Positions 14,615 to 20,773 of a stretch of DNA of 45,496 nt are shown here, one piece after another. The position numbers and the translations under genes were made by a program. This DNA is from Armatimonadota bacterium (GTDB lineage Bacteria > Armatimonadota > Fimbriimonadia > Fimbriimonadales > Fimbriimonadaceae), in NCBI GenBank assembly GCA_021413725.1, contig JAIOPU010000071.1, positions 1 to 45,496 on the forward strand, in the 5' to 3' direction. Below the pieces are notes generated by a model, which saw only the letters and a list, made by a program, of their open reading frames with translations, ran no database searches and was not told the DNA's origin. Numbering within the stretch: the stretch's first letter is position 1; each line of letters starts with the position of its first letter.

Positions 14615-16087
14615 ATGGCATCACTTTCAGATCGAATCATTGGCGTTGAAACGGAATTTGGATGCTTGGTCCAAGACGAGAGCATCGGGACCTCCGAGCA
14701 GGCGGTCGAACAAATAAAAATCGCGGTTTTTTATGATCTGAAACTCGGTGCAATTGACATGCACGCTCGAGATGAAGTTTTTGAGCCAGCACGGTCCGGG
14801 GGGTTCTTGATCAACGGTGCTCGGTTGTATATTGATGCCGTCGGATCCCATTTGGAGTATGCAACGGCAGAAACTCGGAACCTGAGAGATTTGGTAGCTC
14901 AGGATCGAGCCGGGCAGAGCATCATCGTCAGGGCGATTGAAGAGGCTGGGCTGAAGGGCCAGGTTCGGATGTACAACAATTCCGTGGACCACTTCGGCGG
15001 TCACACATTTGGTTGCCATGAGAACTACCTTGCTCGGATTGATGATGAGTTTTTCGCCACTCGCGCTGAATACGTTTACGGTTTTCTTGTGACTCGCCAG
15101 ATTTTTGCGGGCGTTGGTCGAGTGGGTGGGCATGTGCTCTCGACGAACCATCGCCGCCCAACATATGAAGAAGTCTCCGAGAACCCTATTGACTACATTT
15201 GGGTGAACTCGATTTATCACGTCGCGCCCGATAGCACGGTGAAGTTTCAACTGAGCCAGCGAGCAGACCATATTTTAAAGACCATCGCGAGTCGCGTTCG
15301 TTTTAACCGCGCATTGATTAACCCAAAGTGGGAGCATTACTACTCTCACGAGGAGTTGCAGCGGTTGCACATTTTGTTTGGAGAGTCCAATCAGAATGAG
15401 TACGCTTACGCACTCAAGGTTGGGACGACACACTTAGTTTTGCGGCTTTCGGAGGATGGTTTGCTCGGAGACGAGCACTTGCTGGCGAGTCCGATTTGGA
15501 CTCTTCGGGAAGTAAGCCGAGACGAAACTTACGAGTGGCCAGTTATGCTCGAGGATGGCTCGATTATTTGCGCCACAGATTTCCAACGAAGATATCTCGC
15601 GCTGGCCGAGAAACACTACCGAGGCCAGGACGACCAGACGGATTGGGTCCTTGCGCAATGGGCTTCGATTCTGGATGACTTAGAAAGGGACCCATTGTCG
15701 CTCGGGGACAGACTTGATTGGGTGGCGAAGAGGAATATGATTTCTGGCTTTGTCGAGTCCGAAGGGCTGGATTGGCAGGACGATGTCTTGCACTCGCTTG
15801 ATTTGGAATACCACAACATTGATCCGAGCGAGTCCTTATACCACGCTATTCAGCCCACCCAAAGATACATCGACGACATGCAAATCCTTGACGCGATGAC
15901 AGAACCCCCCGTTGATACGCGCGCCTTTGGTAGGAGCAAATTGGTGCGGCAGGCCATGGAGAAGAAAGGAGCTAAATTCTATGTGTTTGACTGGAGCGCG
16001 GCGGCGATCGGTCGAAATGAGTACTTTGATTTGAGCGACCCCTACAACCCCTACGAGAATCCGGTTGGACAATACTATAAATCTTAA
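14615..16087 (+). CDS. pafA: PafA/Dop family carboxylate-amine ligase (Pup/UBact ligase homologue)
   Basis: The PafA/Dop family attaches (PafA) or deamidates/removes (Dop) the small protein Pup, or UBact in Gram-negative phyla, to mark proteins for the bacterial proteasome. The 490-residue product shows GVETEFG (E12, E14 for Mg-ATP), NGARLYID with D74 at the catalytic aspartate position, EYATAE, GCHENYL, QLSQRADHI, LKVGTTHLVL and TEPPVDTRA. The GVETEFG and EYATAE details favour ligase over Dop. Two oddities: one extra residue after the aspartate and Leu instead of Pro in the usual SHPEY. Start ATG at 14615 precedes MASLSDRIIG; a longer frame to 14513 has no support. No Pup/UBact, Dop or proteasome subunit gene is seen in the window. 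A strong terminator follows. Confidence 0.85.
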   Translation: MASLSDRIIGVETEFGCLVQDESIGTSEQAVEQIKIAVFYDLKLGAIDMHARDEVFEPARSGGFLINGARLYIDAVGSHLEYATAETRNLRDLVAQDRAGQSIIVRAIEEAGLKGQVRMYNNSVDHFGGHTFGCHENYLARIDDEFFATRAEYVYGFLVTRQIFAGVGRVGGHVLSTNHRRPTYEEVSENPIDYIWVNSIYHVAPDSTVKFQLSQRADHILKTIASRVRFNRALINPKWEHYYSHEELQRLHILFGESNQNEYAYALKVGTTHLVLRLSEDGLLGDEHLLASPIWTLREVSRDETYEWPVMLEDGSIICATDFQRRYLALAEKHYRGQDDQTDWVLAQWASILDDLERDPLSLGDRLDWVAKRNMISGFVESEGLDWQDDVLHSLDLEYHNIDPSESLYHAIQPTQRYIDDMQILDAMTEPPVDTRAFGRSKLVRQAMEKKGAKFYVFDWSAAAIGRNEYFDLSDPYNPYENPVGQYYKS

Positions 16088-18162: not shown

Positions 18163-19891
18163 CTACTCGTCCTTCAGAAACTTCAAGAACCCATCGCGAT
18201 CCTTGGTGAATCCAGTGATTCTTAGTGCGGTTTTTCCGTCGGCCTTCATGATCACGTAGCTCGGTAGCTCTGTGCTCTTGGTCAATTCCTCTTTGAGCTT
18301 GGCGTTGATGTCGTCTTGCTTGTTTCCGGGACGGTCGCAGTAGAGTTTCACCGTTACAAACTTGCTCATCTCAGCTTGCACGGCAGGGATGGGGAACATA
18401 TTCTTTTCCATTGCTCGGCAGTTGGTGCAGAAGACTCCGGTGAAGTCGACAAAGAGCAACTTGCCTTCCTTTTGAGCTTGCTCAGCAGCTTTGGAAAGGT
18501 CTTGTTGCCATGTGAGGCCATCTACGCTTTCAGCGGCGAGACTCGATGATGGATAGGGGTCAGGAGGCATAAACGCGTTAAGGTCGCCGAGGCCGAGGCC
18601 GTTGATTGCGCCGAGAAATGCTCCGCCCATCACAAGTGTTGCAATGGCAAAGCCTCGCCGGAACCAGCCGATTTTGACCGGTTCGCGGTCGTGGCTGAGG
18701 ACGAGCCAGCCGAGTAGATATAAGGCCGCGATGATCGCGAGAGTCGCCCAGATCGCAAGGAATACAGGTCTTGTTAGGATGCCAAGGTTTAAGGCAATCT
18801 CGGCGGACGAAAGGAACTTCAGAGCCGCCATCAGTTCAATGAAACCAAGGTATGCCTTCGCCGTGGAAAGCCAGGAGCCAGATTTTGGGAGCTTATGAAA
18901 AAGTTGTGCCCATGAAGATCGGGGCAAGCGCCCCGCCCTTACGGCCCAGGGAGTCCATTTTGGTCAGGACTGAAGAAGGCAATGCAAGTTCGAAGACCCC
19001 GAATAGGCTAAAGGAAAGCGCAATAAAGAGCAGACCGAGAAATAGGTTTACCCACAGATTCGTGGCAAGCCGATTGAGATTTGCCGCACCAAAGAGCGAT
19101 GTGATCCCGAGACCAAGGACAGTGAACGTGCCGATTATTCCTGCGCAATAGAGTGCAGCACCTTTCAATTGCTCTTTGAGACTGCCCCCGGCTTTCTTCG
19201 TAAAGAAACTCACCGTAACCGGGATCATGGGGAAGACGCAGGGTGTAATTAGGGCTCCCAGGCCCGAGATGAAGGCAAAGAAAAAGAAGGAAAGAAGGCC
19301 GTCATTCTTCGCTGCGTTGAATTGAGTGGCTTGGTCGTTCCTTGGGGCTTTTTGAACTTCAGCCGTAGCAAGTCGATCTGGCCTGGGCTCCCCGGGAGAG
19401 ACAGCAATCGTAGCTGTCAAATCTGGTCCGTAGGGTCTCTGGCAACCGTTTTCATTGCACGCCTGCGCGAGGACTTTCACACCCACCTCTACCTTGCCAT
19501 TGGTTCCTGCCTTCACAGTGAATGGGACTTTGAAGCTTACTTCACCCTCGAAGTAACCGACCTCCAAGTTAAAATTCGGATCAAACTTCTTTAGAGGGGT
19601 TGGTTCGATGACTTCACTGACCTCGCTCCCAGCGACAATCAATTTCCTGGTCTCAATGCCTTGACCTGTAACCGTGAATGTCGTCGGATAGGGTCCCTTC
19701 AAGACTTCCTTGGTTGAATAGATGTGCCAGCCCTTGACAGTCGTGCCTGTCAAAATGAGTTGCCCTGACTCGCCCGATCGGATATCTGCCGGACTGACCT
19801 TAACGGTCCACTTCGTGATATTCTCAACGTTCTGCCCAAATGCAATGAGGCAACTGGAAATCAGAAGGAGCAGGAGTATGAGTCTTTGCAT
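18163..19891 (-). pseudogene. dsbD: thiol:disulfide interchange protein DsbD-like, disrupted by internal deletion/frameshift
   Basis: DsbD passes electrons from cytoplasmic thioredoxin to periplasmic thiols. The first frame (19891 to 18893) holds a signal peptide, the N-terminal beta domain with the QACNENGCQRPYG cysteines, and membrane helices including ALITPCVFPMIPVTVSF (first membrane cysteine), ending FMGTTFS-stop. The second frame (from about 18905 to 18163) resumes at FHKLPKSGSWLSTAKAYLGFIELMAALKFLS and ends with a thioredoxin domain (VDFTGVFCTNCRAMEKN). In the family about 45 residues lie between, including the SFTC second membrane cysteine; these are absent. So ~134 bases seem missing at a CTTTTTC junction. 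Either a dead gene or an assembly gap. Last gene of the cyclase-NIL-esterase-dsbD run. Confidence 0.88.
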
Positions 19892-19916: not shown

Positions 19917-20773
19917 CTAAAGGTTCCCTAAAAGCCAGTCGCGGTTGTTCACCACCATGTCTGGGTGCCAATCGTGACCCCAGTCGTAGGTAACTAAGTT
20001 CTTTTCTACCGCAATCACAGCCTGAAATATTGCATCCACTGTTTCAGGACGGCAAGCGGGGTCTTTTAGCCCTCGCGAAATCTGAGTTGGAATATGGCAT
20101 CGAGTCGCCTGATTCAGTGTGTCGAAGTAACTGAGGGTGTGCATGACCCGCTCGCGACCGAATGGAATCGCTTCCATGAGATCGACAAGCTCTTTGAGCG
20201 GATATCGGTAGGCGGTCTTGCTCAACGTTACGGGCATCCCACCAAGAAAGGGCCTATCGCATGCGATGGCCTTTATAACCGGACAGTGCGCGCCCAGCCA
20301 AATGGAGAGTCCCGCGCCTTGGCTCATTCCCATGCATCCGATGCGCTTTTCGTCCACTTCAAATTGAGCCTCTAGCACCCTCGCGGCGATGAAACAATCC
20401 TGAAACATGCGACGAAAAAACCACGATTCCGGTACTTCCGAACCTTCTCCTGGTGGAAAGCCCCCTCTCCATGGAGGTTCAGAGACAGGCTCGTGAAGCC
20501 GGATCGAGTGCCGTATTCGTTGGGCAGGAGAGATTCGCGTCCGTAGGGCGGAATCCACAGAAACCCAGGGTGCATTTTCGCTCCGGGTTCGTGGGCAATC
20601 CAGCCTTCTACGGTTCGCCCACCTACGGACGAAAACCAAATGGTTTCGACGACAAAGCCGTCTAGTTCAAAATCGTTGTGGCGCGAACGTCGAAAATCAA
20701 GTGGAACGGTGCGGGCTTCTTCCACCGCCTCAGCCCAAAAGGCATCAAAATCTTCGGGAACGTACGGCTCCAT
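19917..20773 (-). pseudogene. acetylxylan esterase/cephalosporin-C deacetylase family alpha/beta hydrolase, frameshifted
   Basis: The first frame (20773 to 20372) carries the family N-terminus (DFDAFWAEAVEEAR, VETIWFSSVGGRTVEGWIAHE, LNLHGEGAFHQEK), then runs out of register. The second frame resumes at GEGSEVPESWFFRRMFQDCFIAARVL and contains the nucleophile elbow GMSQGAG, the acid Asp in SRGLKDPACRPETV and the catalytic His in YDWGHDWHPD. Relatives have a few more residues (an RGYFxxG stretch) between FHQEK and PESW, so a deletion of about 30 bases at a GAAG repeat near 20442-20450 is more likely than a one-base slip. The intact enzyme would remove acetyl groups from sugars. Sits 10 bases after the NIL gene. 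Confidence 0.85.

Follow-up and report, generated by a model that had tools for sequence, protein, structure and literature searches.

At positions 14615..16087 on the plus strand, the window (the whole 45,496-nucleotide stretch of DNA that we analysed) carries pafA, a gene for a Pup/UBact-type protein ligase of 490 aa, recognised from its reading frame, its family match and its place in a tree. UBact is a small ubiquitin-like protein tag, which PafA attaches to other proteins. The frame is intact, with an ATG start and no internal stops, and its product gives a full-length match to the Pup_ligase family PF03136 in Pfam (E=2.5e-120, 402.9 bits, model positions 1-439 of 441). Elsewhere in the window, on the minus strand, a DsbD-like gene (18163-19891) and an esterase-like gene (19917-20773) each consist of two overlapping frames, possibly reflecting frameshifts or assembly errors.

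The NCBIfam equivalog models score the window protein at 270.7 bits for PafA and 269.5 bits for Dop, each far under its cut-off. The PafA cut-off (551.3 bits, TIGR03686) belongs to a model of the actinobacterial type and is a naming threshold rather than a biological requirement; orthologues tested alongside also fall below it, at 277-297 bits. PafA and Dop profiles of this kind are insufficiently discriminative, as noted by Hecht et al. (PMC7947786). In a tree of 35 proteins, all from the single phylum Armatimonadota, proteins with a PafA loop and proteins with a Dop motif form clades split at 100/100, and the window protein lies inside the PafA clade, sister to the PafA of a congener (G224; 98/99). 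In an alignment, it has the ligase residue at F64, V76, G77, S78, A83, T84 and A85 among the PafA/Dop discriminating sites (PMC7947786) that we checked, departing from the ligase pattern at the Leu63 position, which is Ile, and at one of two Ser sites, which is Arg. Dop (depupylase/deamidase; PDB 4b0r, 5lrt) shares the superfamily and the overall score, but falls in the other clade and carries a motif, DHAHPEY (NDHGHPEY in Armatimonadota), that is missing from the window protein, where DAVGSHLEY stands instead; motif and tree together rule out that the window gene is Dop.

The PF03136 match and the 100/100 split thus bear out the PafA-family call of a first-pass annotation of this DNA, and the PafA/Dop tree that it had proposed puts the protein among the ligases. 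An AlphaFold model of the protein, built from 10 sequences, was too poor (mean pLDDT 56.8) and was left out of the evidence. We conclude from the sequence that the window gene very probably encodes PafA, the orthologous ligase for UBact in a bacterium of the Fimbriimonadaceae (Armatimonadota), a degree of confidence that covers the identity of the gene only, and not whether its partners are present. Two further observations concern the proteins compared. The inner branch of Dop leading to Fimbriimonadaceae is long in the same 35-protein tree, at 0.92 versus 0.27 for the corresponding PafA branch. A record titled Methanoregulaceae archaeon (L004) has a PafA almost the same as that of a member of the Fimbriimonadaceae (L003), and is likely a mislabelled or contaminated bin.

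The active site and its loop

The predicted Mg-ATP glutamates lie in the motif GVETEFG (E12-T-E14, 14648..14656, plus strand) and, together with the catalytic D74, are kept in the window protein and invariant among its near relatives, as the first-pass annotation had read them. The active-site loop (D74-A75-V-G-S-H79-L80-E-Y-A-T-A-E86, 14834..14872, plus strand) does have the two peculiarities recorded there: a HMMER alignment of Y72-I-D74-A75-V-G-S-H79-L80-E-Y-A-T-A-E86 to YLD-VGSHPEYATAE of Corynebacterium glutamicum PafA (PDB 4b0t) shows A75 as an extra residue after the catalytic aspartate, and L80 in place of the actinobacterial Pro of SHPEY. A third difference, unmentioned earlier, is a stretch of about 25 additional residues relative to C. 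glutamicum PafA (4bjr) within G171-F211 (15125..15247, plus strand), which close relatives also have. Apart from these three differences, the window protein resembles the actinobacterial enzymes (4b0t, 4bjr) in its glutamates, its catalytic Asp, its VGSH-EYATAE context and its overall family.

The loop had been taken as altered and specific to an orphan enzyme, with a comparison to relatives named as a test. That comparison shows it to be ordinary. Every Fimbriimonadaceae PafA that we read has D-[AN]-VGSHLEYAT, while in a relative at order level (G191) and in 19 genomes from other families the motif is D-x-VG[SD]Hx-EYAT, where Glu, Gln or Met replaces Leu; Dop copies in Armatimonadota have NDHGHPEY or nearly so. 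The extra residue is therefore present in every Armatimonadota PafA read, within the pattern D-x-V-G-[SD]-H-x-E-Y-A-T, and the residue after the His is Leu, Glu, Gln or Met and never Pro, so the loop is no alteration. Going by these sequences, an additional residue and the lack of Pro characterise Armatimonadota UBact ligases across the phylum, and this distribution rules out the loop as a sign of new function.

The enzyme also appears constrained. Window PafA breaks none of the 104 columns invariant among 42 other Armatimonadota PafA. Its terminal branch measures 0.84 times the mean of relatives, against 1.09-1.34 for plsX, fabH and yceD from this genome; unbroken columns and a short branch rule out a pseudogene or a relaxed enzyme.

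Identity and gene arrangement can be read from sequence, and the chemistry that we propose is carried over from the PafA family, in which the C-terminal glutamate of the tag is activated with ATP and then forms an isopeptide bond with a substrate lysine (PMC2588565, PMC3511204). UBact of a relative (G165) ends in Gln (RYRQRSGQ), a residue that Dop would need to deamidate to Glu beforehand. Mg-ATP held by the N-terminal glutamates of PafA would then phosphorylate the gamma-carboxylate of that Glu, D74 would help the substrate lysine attack to form the isopeptide bond, and the ARC ATPase would feed the UBact-tagged protein to the PrcA/PrcB 20S core.

A dispersed UBact system in Fimbriimonadaceae

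The ligase and its loop match those of the UBact conjugation-proteasome system of Armatimonadota (NCBIfam NF033388, a PF03136 pair, PrcA/B and ARC), whose genes, in loci that we fetched from other families of the phylum, follow the operon order ARC-Dop-UBact-PrcB-PrcA-PafA. In Fimbriimonadaceae, by comparison, this operon is broken up and the system is spread over four loci: PafA, ARC and PrcA each stand singly, and Dop, UBact and PrcB form a cassette (for example L083, L076, L077, L130, L160-L173). Throughout the fetched Fimbriimonadaceae loci, the PF03136 copy between a lipoprotein gene and UBact-PrcB has NDHGHPEY and is Dop, and the remote copy has DAVGSHLEY. The cassettes fetched from Fimbriimonadaceae share a context: they follow geneA, a conserved gene of lipoprotein-like type, and many of them adjoin yceD-plsX-fabH; in the congener G224 the cassette is located behind rpsI. 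PrcA has no neighbours conserved across Fimbriimonadaceae loci, and a synteny test for it is therefore impossible. The geneA that precedes Dop in these cassettes (L083 4773-6341 and relatives) has no Pfam or NCBIfam matches.

We searched 85 Fimbriimonadaceae genomes, 70 of them high-quality. Pup_ligase and UBact occur together in 68 of these 70, with two PF03136 genes in nearly all, and UBact is also carried by the congener. The two exceptions are 1.5 Mb g16 genomes with no match to Pup_ligase, UBact, PrcA or ARC.

Because the system is dispersed across the family, missing neighbours are no sign of an orphan enzyme. Whole-assembly searches placed no UBact, Dop, proteasome subunit (alpha, beta or HslV) or ARC/Mpa ATPase in the window's contig, in agreement with what the first-pass annotation had seen, but the orphan status that it drew from this does not follow, since PafA apart from the cassette is the norm in Fimbriimonadaceae. 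The window gene is an ordinary PafA/UBact ligase in a lineage with a dispersed system.

Partner genes in the window's own assembly

The window's assembly (G000) comprises 3.13 Mb in 282 contigs and is 87.7% complete. It contains an ARC ATPase (C46:6233-7774) with AAA and proteasomal OB domains, scoring 435.5 bits to TIGR03689, which is under that model's cut-off, as are the ARC scores in all 85 Fimbriimonadaceae genomes. This ARC ends in DVI, which fits x-[IV]-[IV], the ending of 35 of 36 Armatimonadota ARC (e.g. L147 6098-7825); actinobacterial Mpa, in contrast, has a QYL tail. The window pafA is the only PF03136 gene in the assembly, so Dop was not found in this 87.7%-complete sequence; within the same limits the UBact HMM gave no match at E<=1, and PrcA and PrcB were likewise not found, with no PF00227 protein, HslV included, and no TIGR03691 match. 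A search for UBact-like small ORFs near pafA, covering nine relatives and 27 kb of the window, returned two weak chance candidates only. Neither the cassette nor PrcA is thus seen in this assembly. The first-pass annotation had held a distant partner set credible, and had said that a standard locus elsewhere, together with the same loop in near relatives, would make the gene ordinary. Partner genes are normally remote in Fimbriimonadaceae, and almost every relative, the congener among them, has such a locus; in G000, which is incomplete, searches for UBact, Dop, PrcA and PrcB came back empty.

The two positions at which relatives carry the cassette are both assembled here and hold none, so it is absent from its known places. 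In G000, geneA is interrupted by a contig boundary, one part lying at the end of C263 and the part with the 3' end at the end of C71; beyond that 3' end come a terminator-like stretch and a convergent LON-substrate-domain gene, and no Dop. At the rpsI site (C159), the 596 bp from rpsI to the contig end hold no Dop sequence. With both sites read through, loss of the cassette to a contig break at geneA or rpsI is ruled out. As a separate observation on contig C263, fabH, a normally essential gene, has one in-frame TAG (L120 3157-3159) where relatives have Ser (FPST*CIV), which is either a consensus error or a nonsense mutation.

We judge, rather than measure, the balance between a recent loss and a relocated, unassembled cassette to be about even. 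That the UBact system is complete in this organism, with PrcA and a Dop-UBact-PrcB cassette moved to a third site both lying in the unassembled part, has close to an even chance. The assembly is incomplete and fragmented into 282 contigs, PafA and ARC are intact and constrained, and no high-quality Fimbriimonadaceae genome out of the 70 has Pup_ligase but lacks UBact, a combination otherwise seen only in incomplete ones (G209, G234, G244). The cassette has already moved once nearby, to its place behind rpsI in G224. The ARC tail also keeps the relatives' ending, while in organisms that have no proteasome genes the ATPase lacks the C-terminal interaction motif (PMC3511204), an observation that concerns a different tail sequence than x-[IV]-[IV]. 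Against a gap, the two known cassette sites are assembled and empty, and PrcA, at a separate locus, would have to be missing too. These same points, four genes absent at two loci and two cleanly empty sites, favour a real and recent deletion of Dop, UBact, PrcB and PrcA that left PafA and ARC over, yet undecayed; we hold this to be a serious contender at somewhat below even chances. Complete loss has happened once in Fimbriimonadaceae, in the two g16 genomes, but a partial state is found in no high-quality relative, the assembly is incomplete, and PafA has no sign of relaxed constraint. The last of these points also fits loss, since a very recent deletion would leave no decay either.

It is improbable that a loss of this kind was followed by a change of role, in which the ligase, possibly together with ARC, came to join a different small protein or peptide to its substrates, as the earlier suggestion of another small substrate would have it. 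The ligase is conserved and UBact goes undetected in the assembly, and corynebacteria provide a partial parallel, using pupylation and the ATPase without a proteasome (PMC3511204): ligase and ATPase are kept and 20S genes are unseen, as in the window's assembly, although corynebacteria still have Pup, whereas searches of G000 detected neither UBact nor Dop, and its ARC has a conserved tail. However, the loop and all invariant sites are the same as in UBact-bearing relatives, accelerated evolution is absent, and the small-protein screen, limited to the UBact HMM, gave no candidate substrates; another small substrate has no positive support. More specifically, that UBact, Dop and the 20S core are truly lost while ligase and ATPase are kept under selection, with PafA now joining another small protein or peptide, strikes us as very unlikely.

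Whether the cassette and PrcA are unassembled or recently lost, the apparent oddity of this gene is settled: its extra loop residue and its lone position are the norm of its lineage, and the UBact system of Fimbriimonadaceae is a dispersed, multi-locus one. What remains of interest is that one incomplete genome apparently lacks the tag, its hydrolase and the 20S core. Should this strain prove to have lost them, it would offer a natural case for asking how a tag ligase functions once its tag is gone.
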